43,139 nucleotides of DNA from Streptomyces sp. NP160. Lineage in GTDB: Bacteria > Actinomycetota > Actinomycetes > Actinomycetales > Quadrisphaeraceae. The notes beneath the pieces are model-generated. The model was not told the DNA's origin. It worked only from the letters and a program-made list of their open reading frames with translations, and ran no database searches. The position numbers were made by a program, and so were the translations under genes. The number at the start of each line of letters is the position of its first letter. Positions within the stretch are counted from its first letter, which is position 1. Location: positions 1 to 43,139 of the forward strand of contig NZ_VDMJ01000040.1 of assembly GCF_006335115.1 (NCBI RefSeq). The letters are read 5' to 3'. This document shows positions 27,561 through 32,374 of this stretch, one piece after another.

Positions 27561-29054
27561 ATGACCACCACGGCCCAGTCCACGACCCGTACCGCTGACG
27601 ACGCCGTCAGCCGCATCCTGGCCCGCCACGGCGGCGCGGTCCCGGCAGCGGTGGCGGACGGCGGACGGGACTACGACGGCGAGCAGTACGACCTCGAGGA
27701 GCGCAACGCGCTGCGACGGGTCGGTGGCCTCGCCAGCGAGCTGTCCACCGAGCTCACCGACGTCACCGAGGTCGAGTACCGCCAGCTCCGCCTGGAGCGC
27801 GTGGTGCTGGCCGGCGTGTGGTCGAGCGCGACCGCGTCCGCGGAGGACGCCGAGAACTCCCTGCGGGAGCTCGCCGCGCTGGCCGAGACCGCCGGCTCGA
27901 CCGTCCTCGACGGCGTGCTGCAGCGGCGCGACACCCCCGACCCGGGCACCTGGCTCGGCTCGGGCAAGGCGAACGAGCTCAAGGGCGTCGTCTCCGCCGC
28001 CGGCGCCGACACGGTGATCGCCGACGGCGAGCTGTCGCCGTCCCAGCGCCGCGCGCTGGAGGACATCGTCAAGGTCAAGGTCATCGACAGGACCGCCCTG
28101 ATCCTCGACATCTTCGCCCAGCACGCGAAGTCCAAGGAGGGCAAGGCCCAGGTCGAGCTGGCGCAGCTGGAGTACCTGCTCCCGCGCCTGCGCGGCTGGG
28201 GCGAGTCGATGTCCCGCCAGGCCGGTGGCCGCGTCGCCGGCGGTGAGGGCATCGGCTCCCGCGGACCCGGTGAGACCAAGATCGAGCTCGACCGGCGCCG
28301 CATCCGCACCCGGATGGCCAAGCTGCGCCGCGAGATCAAGGAGATGCGGCCCGCCCGCGAGACGCGGCGCCAGTCGCGCCGCCGCGGGGCCGTGCCCAGC
28401 GTCGTCATCGCCGGGTACACCAACGCCGGCAAGTCCTCGCTGCTCAACCGCCTCACGGGGGCGGGCGTGCTCGTGGAGGACGCGCTGTTCGCCACGCTGG
28501 ACCCGACGGTGCGCCGCTCGCAGACGCCCGACGGGCGCACGATGACGCTGTCGGACACGGTCGGCTTCGTCCGTTCGCTGCCCACGCAGCTGGTGGAGGC
28601 GTTCCGCTCCACGCTGGAGGAGGTCGGCGAGGCCGACGTCCTGCTGCACGTGGTCGACGCCTCCCACCCCGACCCGGAGGGGCAGATCTCCGCGGTGCGC
28701 GACGTGCTGGCCGAGGTCGGCACGCACGGCGGGGACGGGCCCGTGGAGGTCGTCGTCCTCAACAAGTGCGACCAGGCCGACCCGGAGGTCGTCTCGCGGC
28801 TGCTGCGCCGCGAGCGCGGCTCGGTGGTCGTCTCGGCGCGCACGGGCGAGGGCCTGGAGGCGCTGCGCGAGCGCATCGGCGAGGTGCTCCCGCACCCGGA
28901 GGTGCTGGTCGACGTGGTGGTGCCCTACTCCAGGGGCGACCTGGTCTCGCGCGTGCACTCCACCGGCGAGGTGCTCTCCACCGAGCACACCGAGACCGGC
29001 ACGCGCGTCCGCGCGCGGGTCGCCCCCGACCTCGCCGCGGAGCTCACCGCCTGA
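27561..29054 (+). CDS. hflX: ribosome-splitting GTPase HflX
   Basis: A 497-residue GTPase that binds the 50S subunit and splits stalled ribosomes during heat or antibiotic stress. The N-terminal HflX domain includes TWLGSGKANELK and the helical AQLEYLLPRLRGWG with the Gly-rich loop GEGIGSRGPGETK. G-domain motifs: G1 GYTNAGKSS, G2 ATLDPT, G3 SDTVGFV, G4 NKCD, G5 SARTGEG. An AGGAGG site lies 5 nt before the ATG, preceded by a hairpin. The protein has a normal actinobacterial length. It converges with the DUF559 pseudogene across a 26-bp perfect inverted repeat. Confidence 0.97.
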   Translation: MTTTAQSTTRTADDAVSRILARHGGAVPAAVADGGRDYDGEQYDLEERNALRRVGGLASELSTELTDVTEVEYRQLRLERVVLAGVWSSATASAEDAENSLRELAALAETAGSTVLDGVLQRRDTPDPGTWLGSGKANELKGVVSAAGADTVIADGELSPSQRRALEDIVKVKVIDRTALILDIFAQHAKSKEGKAQVELAQLEYLLPRLRGWGESMSRQAGGRVAGGEGIGSRGPGETKIELDRRRIRTRMAKLRREIKEMRPARETRRQSRRRGAVPSVVIAGYTNAGKSSLLNRLTGAGVLVEDALFATLDPTVRRSQTPDGRTMTLSDTVGFVRSLPTQLVEAFRSTLEEVGEADVLLHVVDASHPDPEGQISAVRDVLAEVGTHGGDGPVEVVVLNKCDQADPEVVSRLLRRERGSVVVSARTGEGLEALRERIGEVLPHPEVLVDVVVPYSRGDLVSRVHSTGEVLSTEHTETGTRVRARVAPDLAAELTA

Positions 29055-29073: not shown

Positions 29074-29130
29074 CGAGTGCGGAGTCCAGGGTCAGGATCA
29101 CGACGATCCTGACCCTGGACTCCGCACTCG
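29074..29130. repeat. 57-nt palindromic element, copy 1 (26-bp perfect arms)
   Basis: Two perfect 26-bp arms (29074-29099 and 29105-29130), starting CGAGTGCGGAGTCC and ending GGACTCCGCACTCG, surround a 5-nt loop. It lies between hflX and the convergent DUF559 pseudogene, 7 bp from the pseudogene's stop. It could terminate transcription from both sides, but a homologous copy at 30152-30208 lies in a divergent gap where no terminator is needed. Confidence 0.85.
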
Positions 29131-29137
29131 CGGCAGT

Positions 29138-30095
29138 TCAGCGACCAGTGAGCGCGCGGCGGACCCGGTCCACGGTCTCCTCACGAGCCCACGGTCGGTG
29201 CCGGTCCAGGCTCCCGCCGACCAGGACGACGACCGTCCAGCCGGCCTCGCGCAGCCGCGTCCGCTTGTCCTCGTCGTGGCGCCACTGGTCCTGGCCCTTG
29301 AGGCGGTGGACGTCCCCGTCGTACTCGACGATGACGCGCTGCTCGAACCAGACCATGTCGACCTGCCACAGCCGACCGGTGGCGTCCGGCACCCACCGTC
29401 CGCACTCCGGTTCCGGCAGCCCCGAGCTCACGAACAGCAGGCGCGCCTCGGTCTCCATGGGGGAGTCGACCTGGTGGCGCACGTCTGCGAGGACGAGTCG
29501 CAGCTGCCGCGCGCCGCGGCAGCCGCTGCGCAGGTCCACCGCGACCTGCATCTCCTCGTGCGACGCGTGATGGCGTCGGACGGCGTCGCCGAGAGCCACC
29601 CCGTCGACGTGGGGCAGGCCGGGTGCTAGGTCGCACCAGGCGCTCACCGGGTCCTGCAGCCGCAGCCCGTCCCACGCCGGCAGGAGCGCCGAGGCGTCCC
29701 CGCCCGTGGTGAGGACGAGCCCGTCGTGCTGCCGCACGCGGCCGACGCTCACGCCGCGGACCTCGGGGCGCACGACACCCGCCGGGACCCGCGCCTGGAG
29801 GAGCCCGCCGACGGGCTCAGGGCGCCCCCAGGGCGTCGGCAGCCCGAGCAGGCGCACCGCGGTCCACTCCGAGAACCCAGCGGAGGGCGGCAGAGCCAGG
29901 CGCGCGGCAGCCACATCCAGTGCCAGCCCGGGTGCGAGGCCCGGGTGCGAGGCCCGGTGGCACCCGCACGCCGCGGTGCGGGGTGGTGAAGCGCGGTGGA
30001 CGCAGCACGTCGGCCGTGGGTCCCATCTCGCGCGCCTCGGCCACGCTGAAGGGGCGACGCAGCAGCTCGGGTGGGACGTCGGCTCGGCGCGGCAC
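29138..30095 (-). pseudogene. DUF559 (Vsr-like endonuclease fold) protein, frameshifted
   Basis: The two halves are in different frames. The N-terminal half (from GTG at 30095) reads PELLRRPFSVAEAREMG and later FTTPHRGVRVPPGLAPG, the usual start of the actinobacterial DUF559 proteins. The second half reads LALPPSAGFSEWTAVRLLGL and carries the nuclease-like domain VIVEYDGDVHR...DKRTRLREAGWTVVVL. A 13-bp direct duplication at 29926-29951 separates them. Removing one copy joins the halves in one frame of about 314 codons, so this is a recent knockout, unless it is a sequencing error. The DUF559 fold resembles very-short-patch-repair endonucleases; its role in these paralogous genes is not known. 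Confidence 0.85.
29926..29951. repeat. 13-bp tandem duplication that breaks the DUF559 reading frame
   Basis: GCCCGGGTGCGAG occurs twice head-to-tail (29926-29938 and 29939-29951). Because 13 is not a multiple of 3, the duplication shifts the frame; deletion of one copy restores a continuous protein with the family's expected sequence on both sides. Confidence 0.9.
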
Positions 30096-30151
30096 CGCAT
30101 CACCGTGCCGCGCGAGGGCTCCTTCCTGCTGTCGTCGTCCACAGGCGTCCG

Positions 30152-30208
30152 CGAGGGCGGAGTCCGGGGCCAGGAAGTGCTCGATGGTGACCTCGGACTC
30201 CGCTCTCG
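30152..30208. repeat. 57-nt palindromic element, copy 2
   Basis: This element has the same length as copy 1 at 29074 and matches it at 43 of 57 positions. Outer arms CGAGGGCGGAGTCC and GGACTCCGCTCTCG are near-perfect partners, while the centre has lost pairing. Pairing extends outward to about 30142 and 30217 with one bulge. It lies 56 bp upstream of the DUF559 start and 66 bp upstream of dinG, in a divergent gap. Confidence 0.8.
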
Positions 30209-30274: not shown

Positions 30275-32374
30275 GTGCCGAAGCCCAGCCGCGGAGCCGA
30301 CCCCTCCGACCTCCTCGACGCCGCCGTCGCGGCGCTGGGCGGGGCCCCGCGCGAGGGGCAGCAGAAGATGGTCGCCGCCGTCTCCCAGGCGGTCCGCTCG
30401 GGTCGCCACCTCCTCGTGCAGGCCGGGACGGGCACCGGCAAGTCGCTGGGCTACCTGGTGCCGCTGGCCGCGCACGCCGCCGAGACGGGCACCCCGGGCG
30501 TGGTCTCCACGGCGACGCTGGCGCTGCAGGCGCAGGTGGTCGACCGGGACCTGCCCCGGCTGTCCCAGGCGCTGCGCCCGCTGCTGGGCCGGGAGCTGAC
30601 GTGGCAGACCGTCAAGGGCCGCGCCCACTACGTGTGCCGGCAGAAGCTGGTGGGGGGCTTCCCCGAGGACGAGCCGGAGGCGCTGCCCGGCATGGAGCTG
30701 GTCGGCGGGGCCGAGCGCGCCACGGACCGTCGCCCCGCCGCGAGCTCGGCCACCAGCCAGCTCGGCCGGGAGGTCGCCAGGCTGCACCGCTGGGCGCAGG
30801 ACACCGAGACCGGAGACCGCGACGAGCTGGTCCCCGGCGTCTCCGAGCGCGCCTGGCGCCAGGTCTCGGTGAGCTCGCGCGAGTGCCTCGGCGCCACCCG
30901 CTGCCCCATGGCGGAGGAGTGCCACGTCGAGCTGGCGCGGGCGCGGGCCAAGGAGGTGGACGTGGTCGTCACCAACCACGCGCTGCTGGCCATCGACGCC
31001 GTCGAGGACGTGCAGCTGCTGCCCGAGCACGACGTCGTCGTCATCGACGAGGCCCACGAGCTGGTCGACCGGGTCACCTCGGTGGCCACGGGGTCGCTGT
31101 CGGCCTCGGCGGTGGCCCAGGCCGCGACCACCGCGCGCCGCCAGGGCGGTCTCGACCCCACGTCGGCTGAGCGGCTGCGCGTCGCCTCCGACGACCTCGG
31201 CGCCGTGCTCGAGGAGGCCCCCGTCGGCAGGTACGCGCGGGGCCTGCCCGAGGGCGTGCGCCTGGCCGTGGCGGGCGTGCGCGACGCCGCCCGCGAGGCC
31301 CTGTCGGGCCTCAAGGGCGAGGGGGGCCAGAAGGACGACGACGGCGAAGCGGCGGCCGGCAAGCAGGTCGCCCGCGCCGCGCTGAGCGAGGTCTTCGACG
31401 TGGCCGAGCGGCTCGTCGAGGTGGGCCCCGCGGGAGACGCGCCCGGTGAGGACGTCGCGTGGCTCGAGGCCCCCGGCGCCTGGCGCCGTGACGAGGAGCC
31501 GCGGCCGCGCGTGCTGCACGTGGCGCCGCTGAGCGTGGCGATGACGCTGCGCGAGCACCTCTTCGGCGGCTCCACGGTGGTGCTGACCTCGGCCACGCTG
31601 ACGCCGGGCGGGTCCTTCGACGCCGCCGCCGGCGCGCTGGGCCTGCAGGGAGCGGGGGCGCCGCAGTGGACCGCGCTCGACGTCGGCAGCCCGTTCGACC
31701 ACGCCAAGCAGGGGATCCTCTACGTGGCCGAGCACCTGCCCCAGCCCGGCCGCGAGGGCCCGGTGCCGGAGGTGCTGGAGGAGGTCGAGCGACTGGTCAT
31801 CGCCGCCGGCGGCCGGGCTCTGGGGCTGTTCTCCTCCCGCCGCGCCGCCGAGGCCGCCGCGGAGGCCCTCGGCGACCGGCTCGCCCAGCACGGCATCTCC
31901 GTGCTCTGCCAGGGCGACGACACCGTGCCCAACCTCGTCCGCGAGTTCGCCGAGGACCCGCGCACCTGCCTGTTCGGCACGCTGACGCTGTGGCAGGGCG
32001 TGGACGTGCCGGGCCCGAGCTGCCAGCTGGTCATCCTCGACCGGATCCCGTTCCCCCGCCCGGACGACCCGCTGGCCTCGGCCCGCGCCGAGGCGGCCGA
32101 CCGCGCCGGGGGCAACGGGTTCATGGCCGTCTCCGCCACCCACGCGGCGCTCCTGCTCGCGCAGGGCGCCGGGCGGCTGCTGCGCAGCACCTCCGACCGC
32201 GGCGTGGTGGCGCTGCTCGACCCGCGGCTGGCCACCAAGCGGTACGGCTCCTTCCTGCGGGCGAGCCTGCCGCCGCTGTGGCCGACCACCGACACCGAGG
32301 TGGTGCTGGGCGCGCTGCGACGCCTGGACGCCGCGGCCACTGATCAAGAGGCGAGGGTCACCGAGCCTGCTTAG
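30275..32374 (+). CDS. dinG: DinG-family ATP-dependent DNA helicase
   Basis: A 699-residue XPD/DinG-like superfamily 2 helicase for damaged or structured DNA. Walker A is GTGTGKS (51-57) and the DEAH box is VIDEAHELVDRV. An iron-sulfur cluster site is likely: C121 in HYVCRQK and three more Cys in SRECLGATRCPMAEECH. The C-terminal half has the VVLTSATLTPGG and GTLTLWQGVDVPG motifs, and ends QGAGRLLRSTSDRGVVALLD. No SOS box was found upstream. The TAG stop forms the -10 hexamer of the following OsmC gene. Confidence 0.93.
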   Translation: MPKPSRGADPSDLLDAAVAALGGAPREGQQKMVAAVSQAVRSGRHLLVQAGTGTGKSLGYLVPLAAHAAETGTPGVVSTATLALQAQVVDRDLPRLSQALRPLLGRELTWQTVKGRAHYVCRQKLVGGFPEDEPEALPGMELVGGAERATDRRPAASSATSQLGREVARLHRWAQDTETGDRDELVPGVSERAWRQVSVSSRECLGATRCPMAEECHVELARARAKEVDVVVTNHALLAIDAVEDVQLLPEHDVVVIDEAHELVDRVTSVATGSLSASAVAQAATTARRQGGLDPTSAERLRVASDDLGAVLEEAPVGRYARGLPEGVRLAVAGVRDAAREALSGLKGEGGQKDDDGEAAAGKQVARAALSEVFDVAERLVEVGPAGDAPGEDVAWLEAPGAWRRDEEPRPRVLHVAPLSVAMTLREHLFGGSTVVLTSATLTPGGSFDAAAGALGLQGAGAPQWTALDVGSPFDHAKQGILYVAEHLPQPGREGPVPEVLEEVERLVIAAGGRALGLFSSRRAAEAAAEALGDRLAQHGISVLCQGDDTVPNLVREFAEDPRTCLFGTLTLWQGVDVPGPSCQLVILDRIPFPRPDDPLASARAEAADRAGGNGFMAVSATHAALLLAQGAGRLLRSTSDRGVVALLDPRLATKRYGSFLRASLPPLWPTTDTEVVLGALRRLDAAATDQEARVTEPA

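Follow-up and report, generated by a model that had tools for sequence, protein, structure and literature searches.

The window analysed here is a 43,139-nt contig of Streptomyces sp. NP160 (NZ_VDMJ01000040.1), in which a DUF559 gene lies between hflX and a dinG-like helicase gene and is bracketed by two palindromes of equal length (Table 1). Copy 1 is found beyond the minus-strand stop codon of the DUF559 gene and 19 nt after that of hflX, and copy 2 precedes the GTG start codon on one side and the dinG-like start, 66 nt away, on the other. The two copies are identical at 43 of 57 bases, their self-complementarity amounting to 26 of 28 positions in copy 1 and 19 of 28 in copy 2, and as single-stranded DNA they are predicted to fold with -35.5 kcal/mol (z -11.2) and -19.8 kcal/mol (z -5.1), respectively. 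Copy 1 is the only 57-mer of the window that is self-complementary at 21 or more of 28 positions. The window contains 83.8 million direct pairs of 57-mers spaced 200-2200 bp apart; four of these reach 43 identities, corresponding to two places in the window, one of which is the copy 1/copy 2 pair. A previous description of this DNA, hereafter the sequence-only reading, had reported two palindromes of this length and mutual identity, the perfect arms of copy 1, the spacings to the gene and a divergent gap around copy 2 in which a terminator would make little sense, and our measurements agree with it on each of these points. A hairpin followed by a T-run, as intrinsic terminators have, was found nowhere between positions 28900 and 30400. 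A known RNA family identity was also rejected, as no Rfam family is matched by the palindromes at the curated cut-off and the matches below it are mostly to miRNA families, which any hairpin may give.

Table 1. Coordinates of the genes, palindromes and duplication at the DUF559 locus of the window.
Feature	Position	Strand	Description
hflX (GTPase)	27561..29054	+	Pfam GTP-bdg_N, GTP-bdg_M, MMR_HSR1; left neighbour, convergent with the DUF559 gene
Palindrome copy 1	29074..29130		57 nt; perfect 26-bp arms, 5-nt loop; 7 nt past the DUF559 stop
DUF559 gene, main frame	29138..29956	-	rest of N-terminal region and EDxHD/Vsr-like nuclease domain (SPMETEARL...VDMVW...VEYDGDVHR); stop 29138-29140
DUF559 gene, N-terminal part, other frame	29817..30095	-	GTG start at 30095
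13-bp tandem duplication (GCCCGGGTGCGAG, 2.5 copies)	29926..29957		at the DUF559 frame change
Palindrome copy 2	30152..30208		57 nt; 19/28 self-complementary; divergent gap, 56 nt before the DUF559 start
dinG-like helicase gene	30275..32374	+	Pfam Helicase_C_2, DEAD; right neighbour, divergent

The gene that the sequence-only reading placed between the palindromes is present, but not as one open frame: its N-terminal part is in the frame of position 30095 and the rest in the frame ending at 29138, with the tandem duplication at the frame change, and in the relative G001 both parts align in a single frame. The main frame is matched by the A1 profile with E 7.1e-61, with one TGA inside, and is barely detectable with Pfam DUF559 (E 8.8e-4; 19.6 bits, the cut-off being 20.6), the gene scoring 20.9 bits in the genome search. 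An assembly error may be the source of the frame break.

Palindrome pairs around DUF559 genes across Actinomycetota

DUF559 genes of Oerskovia are bracketed by palindrome pairs as well, with other sequences, and we have surveyed two sets of regions, composed of 80 DUF559 regions of 11-20 kb from the window's genus and Oerskovia's family (set 1) and of 60 regions, each about 11 kb long, sampled across the Actinomycetota (set 2). A pair was counted when both palindromes had arms matching at 15 or more of 20 positions, were 500-2200 bp apart and were alike at 38 or more of 55 positions. By this measure 65 of these 140 other DUF559 loci are bracketed by a homologous pair, as are 6 of 9249 control points taken from the regions themselves: 42 of 80 loci in set 1, where the control gave 6 of 7167 points, all six in one region, and 23 of 60 in set 2, where the control gave 0 of 2082. 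Both sets were chosen by the author among the matches listed, favouring strong matches and long contigs, after results on 49 and 30 program-chosen loci were known; 18 and 7 of the latter, respectively, were bracketed, at slightly looser thresholds and with the window's unit included in each count. Orthologous units are counted separately in these figures. The background against which these pairs stand out is itself rich, with 2-31 palindromes detected per region of 11-20 kb in these high-GC genomes.

The same picture results from a test that is blind to palindromes and simply compares upstream with downstream flanks: 92 of 140 DUF559 loci reach at least 32 of 45 identities, and at this cut-off the controls give 2 of 438 cross pairs within the same genome and 5 of 840 pairs from other genomes. 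The distance from the stop codon to the start of the downstream palindrome is at most 30 nt in 30 of 42 units and at most 100 nt in 38 of them, and the palindrome often overlaps the stop codon. The sequence-only reading had named a random occurrence of the element after unrelated genes, with neither enrichment near DUF559 nor empty sites, as the outcome that would speak against it; what we find is a very strong and firm association with DUF559, and sites free of the element do exist (see below).

A clade of 15 DUF559 proteins in the 140-locus set, from whose clade analysis 4 proteins that were absent or too short are omitted, is devoid of palindrome pairs, and several of its members have other repeats in their flanks. 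The genes at L126, L133, L104 and L103, which form part of a clade of their own, are flanked by pairs of direct repeats that are not palindrome-like.

Regarding the other DUF559 genes of the window's genome, none of five further PF04480 (DUF559) genes has a palindrome pair. Three more, retrieved with the A1 profile in a set that leaves out a match on C104 and two unlisted ones, do carry flank repeats, each its own: the flank test gave 34 of 45 (L369), 35 of 45 (L370) and 28 of 45 (L371) identities, and at a relaxed threshold L371 has a flank pair alike at 42 of 55 positions. The repeats of L371 are located at 317-403 and 1434-1488, one side having two copies 32 nt apart.

Palindrome sequences and their shared design

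The palindromes of 66 units, the window's included, fall into 55 clusters, the identities within each own pair being high by selection. In a single genome, G236, 11 DUF559 genes were examined and six proved to be bracketed, each by a different palindrome. The palindrome is thus mostly private to its DUF559 lineage, and in what follows a palindrome is called cognate in this sense of sequence privacy, and not of binding. Correspondingly, the proposal of the sequence-only reading that one 57-nt element is the partner of DUF559 was not borne out: lineages mostly have palindromes of their own, and two of the four copies found in the host genome have no DUF559 gene in the 3 kb inspected. A single 57-nt family tied to DUF559 everywhere was rejected, as a strict pattern of it turned up in no more than 3 of 99 genomes, that of the window being one, and the match in one of the two others (G023) looks like chance by eye.

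Despite these private sequences, CGCYGAG recurs as the outer edge of the arms. An initial profile reached a score of 1713, five shuffles giving 912-946, a difference that overstates the shared skeleton because each unit contributed four related arms and the arms were shuffled apart. When each of 55 units is represented by a single arm, the scores are 372 and 420, and the highest values among 20 letter shuffles each are 280 and 292; in this test the CGCYGAG edge holds and an inner GTT is weak. In the initial profile, the edge lies at a nearly constant distance from the centre in 149 of 220 arms. Such a shared design with variable letters would be expected for the targets of related dimeric proteins diverging in specificity.

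Dispersed copies, gain and loss

With a loose hairpin pattern, the window's palindrome family has four members in its genome, the window pair and two solo copies at C124:37066 and C176:84815, which adjoin an aldo/keto-reductase-like and a transporter-like gene, respectively (names given by eye from the open reading frames). No DUF559 gene was found near either within the 3 kb read, and two of four copies next to DUF559 would by themselves be weak evidence for an association. The loop and centre of the C176 copy (G000:C176:84815-84846, L006) reads NN in the assembly, as does a hairpin centre at G000:C57 near 135312 (L049); long palindromes may therefore be under-counted or collapsed in short-read genomes.

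Dispersed copies of cognate palindromes, a feature of REP/RAYT systems, are thus present here, and in several genomes the solo copies outnumber those of the unit. Six genomes out of the 101 family genomes searched have 4-20 forward arms of the AGAAGTGAGT palindrome, unit copies included (G099 8, G100 16, G101 17, G159 17, G184 4, G194 20); in five of them this palindrome brackets a DUF559 gene, and the sixth is G194, whose matching region can be aligned with the same unit and both palindromes. Elsewhere the arm was found seven times in G177, once forward and three times reverse in G109, and as one reverse arm in each of three others. In the window's genus, two-armed copies of the GATCATGCAG palindrome number 10 in G002, 10 in G003, 6 in G001, 6 in G005, 5 in G004 and 1 in G000. 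In each of G003, G004 and G005, two of those counted are unit copies, and the six genomes from other genera have none.

A palindrome scan of 84,980 species genomes retrieved 35 stretches. Four Oerskovia species account for 26 of these, every one of which has the 51-nt length of window copy 1 and differs from it in the inner letters. Among 21 distinct copies of this Oerskovia family, two-sided (compensatory) changes are observed at 5 pairs, a number reached by 20 of 500 shuffles, and they occupy 11 cells (5 of 500 shuffles), the exact arms of the search pattern fixing the outer pairs in this test. In Oerskovia turbata (L022:3726-4832), a copy of the dispersed GAGTGCGGAGTTCTTG palindrome is located 74 nt before an open frame that contains a 3'-truncated DUF559 gene, possibly a decayed cognate gene of a multi-copy family.

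We have also compared solo sites among the genomes of the window's genus, the intergenic position having been checked for the C124 and C176 copies and one copy of G003. At the C124 site the element is present in G000 and G001 and absent in the other four. In G002 and G004 the two flanking genes are joined directly and a neighbouring gene is lost, so that a deletion is possible and the absence confounded; in G003 and G005 an ordinary GC hairpin takes the place of the element. At the C176 site it is present in G000 and G002, degenerate in G001 and absent in G004, and in G003 and G005, where the context differs, it was not seen. Finally, one copy of G003 is missing at the matching site of G005 (gap of 57 versus 16). 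At one of these three sites TGAG is found at both ends of the element, and there the deletion of the neighbouring gene confounds the comparison. These differences represent gain or loss, whatever the mechanism.

In G000, G002 and G004, a gene located between the aldo/keto-reductase-like and the VOC-like one appears to be lost (L260, L262 and L265, compared with L261, L263 and L264), and the palindrome is what distinguishes the junctions. An excised unit leaving a single palindrome was not found, the candidate G194 carrying the unit. Phage carriage was rejected, as one scan of viral contigs with a single peptide pattern returned no relative.

Units at conserved loci

A DUF559 gene or its remnant is found between hflX and dinG in six genomes of the window's genus, in two arrangements. 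In G000, G001 and G002 the gene is on the minus strand: the orthologous unit of G001 has a weaker palindrome pair (36 of 55), below the detector threshold, and in G002 there is an 87-residue DUF559 remnant with two unlike palindromes. The gene of G003, G004 and G005 lies on the plus strand, is 48-49% identical to that of the window and is bracketed by GATCATGCAG pairs alike at 43, 46 and 42 of 55 positions, respectively. In dinG, closeness to G000 is 97% for G004 and 98% for G001, which suggests that the unit, palindrome included, was replaced or exchanged on at least one occasion. In three genomes from two other genera (G013; G006 and G009) hflX and dinG are adjacent without a DUF559 gene; in G007 the two are separated by about 1.8 kb in which nothing matches the DUF559 gene of the window, and hflX was not found in the 6 kb read in G008.

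A second case is locus X, found at L106, L109, L115, L164, L166, L168, L174 and L176, where the flanks are conserved and the gene is inverted in L106 and L176. That units reside at conserved loci argues for mostly vertical descent over frequent jumping.

The DUF559 proteins

In an alignment of 18 bracketed proteins, residues E214, D246, E257, D259, H263 and D273 (L102 numbering) are invariant, among others. All 18 match REase_MTES_1575 and DUF559 at E of 0.1 or lower, and two match AbiEi_1; in addition, PADLOC AbiEi models match the N-terminal half in two of three proteins scanned, the piece from the window giving no match. The best solved structure for the nuclease profile is 3r3p, annotated as 'Mobile intron protein' (E 4.5e-5), which we take to be I-Bth0305I, followed by 3hrl (9.7e-5). 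The features of the EDxHD class are therefore found in the sense of the invariant residues as a set and of the 3r3p profile match, rather than of a letter-by-letter mapping of the motif. Searches with a single protein against solved structures gave no match, and NCBIfam gave nothing relevant. DUF559 is usually placed in the Vsr fold group.

Interpretation

Taken together, these observations lead us to regard the window as probably containing one member of a widespread actinobacterial unit that resembles REP/RAYT, in which a DUF559 nuclease would recognise the private palindromes that flank it. Its components are of unequal strength: beside the observed association, recognition of the cognate palindrome by the DUF559 protein is likely, and self-spreading of the unit is possible. 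The sequence-only reading, which had proposed a REP/RAYT-like unit with a Vsr-like nuclease, thus stands in respect to anatomy and association, including the solo copies, and falls in respect to the one 57-nt element.

The steps of such a unit may be envisaged as follows. The DUF559 protein would bind its palindrome as a symmetric dimer, because the two-fold symmetry and the length match the nearly 60-bp target of EDxHD enzymes, and would then nick or cut it. Repair from another copy could keep the two flanking copies alike, could let the gene segment flip, and may occasionally seed or convert palindrome copies elsewhere, so that nuclease and palindrome would persist side by side, in the manner of RAYT and REP. 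Barring a misassembly, the window's own nuclease gene is no longer in frame, and what its genome retains is the flanking pair together with at least two solo copies.

We would advance more tentatively, as possible and somewhat short of probable, the further-reaching proposal that this is a separately evolved palindrome system. Here, an EDxHD nuclease with an AbiEi-like N-terminal part would recognise, as a homodimer, a private palindrome of about 57 bp, copy it around the genome, homogenise and invert its own flanks, and diversify so that single actinobacterial genomes come to contain many pairs of nuclease and palindrome, each orthogonal to the others.

A different explanation is that the palindromes are regulatory or insulating hairpins, acting as bidirectional terminators and as operators for an AbiEi-like, self-regulating DNA-binding protein, so that the pair isolates the gene. 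The location of copy 1 between convergent genes, the many downstream palindromes that overlap the stop codon, the strong predicted folding and the AbiEi matches in N-terminal halves would all fit with it; however, there is no T-tract around the locus, copy 2 sits in a divergent gap, and operators poorly explain solo copies away from DUF559 or a like copy past the stop codon, which makes this explanation unlikely. Still less probable, in our judgement, is that the palindromes belong to another mobile element (a MITE, REP or IS end), DUF559 being a passenger or inserting with target duplication. Such an insertion would indeed yield two like flanks, and the excess of solo over unit copies in several genomes is in its favour. 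Against it, no Rfam family was identified and the Y1 (RAYT) transposase, PF01797, was found in none of 20 genomes by a search that does find it in E. coli, which also led us to reject RAYT-driven REPs; moreover, the bracketing recurs with DUF559 across the phylum with many unrelated palindromes, so that a single common mobiliser other than DUF559 is unlikely. Ordinary terminators, or a chance likeness of GC-rich hairpins around a short gene, are suggested by the abundance of hairpins in high-GC genomes but have a negligible probability and were rejected, given the control rates of both sets and of the same-genome cross pairs and the absence of T-tracts.

The REP/RAYT-like reading has several consequences. 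REP and RAYT are the known case of a bacterial nuclease living with dispersed palindromes, the enzyme there being a Y1 transposase. Should a nuclease family unrelated to it behave in this way across a phylum, the arrangement would have arisen on two or more occasions, and a testable role could be assigned to DUF559, named as a 'domain of unknown function'. The private palindromes predict dozens of long, possibly orthogonal recognition sites, and as a candidate target lies on either side of each gene, recognition and spreading are directly testable. As far as the literature was searched, the pairing of DUF559 with palindromes is undescribed: we found no report linking DUF559 to flanking palindromes, which is weak evidence of absence considering that subscription papers fall mostly outside the coverage.

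Comparison with known systems

Vsr, the endonuclease of very short patch repair, corrects T:G mismatches and is accompanied by a methyltransferase. The DUF559 proteins share with it invariant E, D, E-x-D-G and H residues; unlike Vsr, they have a palindrome pair as their recurring partner, and in the window the gene is flanked by hflX and dinG. AbiEi antitoxins of type IV toxin-antitoxin systems resemble the N-terminal part, through the AbiEi matches in two of three scanned proteins and those to AbiEi_1 in two of 18; unlike them, the proteins under study have a C-terminal nuclease domain, and hflX and dinG flank the window's gene in place of a partner toxin gene.

The likeness to I-Bth0305I goes further. 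Beyond the profile match of the nuclease domain, EDxHD homing endonucleases such as I-Bth0305I are described as dimerizing on a target of nearly 60 bp (PMC3943268), which fits the length and symmetry of a palindrome of 55-57 bp. On the other hand, no intron or intein is seen here, the gene lies between two palindromes instead of splitting its target, and the N-terminal part is AbiEi-like in two of the three proteins scanned.

The closest comparison is with REP/RAYT systems (REPtrons; REPINs). RAYT genes are described between two REPs, with REPs dispersed and their pairing preserved (PMC2817692, PMC3733652), usually at more than 100 per genome (PMC2817692). The DUF559 units differ from these by having a DUF559/EDxHD enzyme and not a Y1 transposase, palindromes of about 55-57 bp with the shared edge CGCYGAG and without a GTAG head, much lower copy numbers (4 in the window's genome, 4-20 in the best genomes) and hosts belonging to Actinomycetota. 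As there is no Y1 transposase between the palindromes, we call the unit REP/RAYT-like and do not file it as a member. The resemblance to what those sources describe is otherwise extensive: a nuclease-type gene lies between two cognate palindromes, solo palindromes are dispersed in the genome, several unrelated systems are found per genome, and the pairing of the palindrome is kept via complementary changes.
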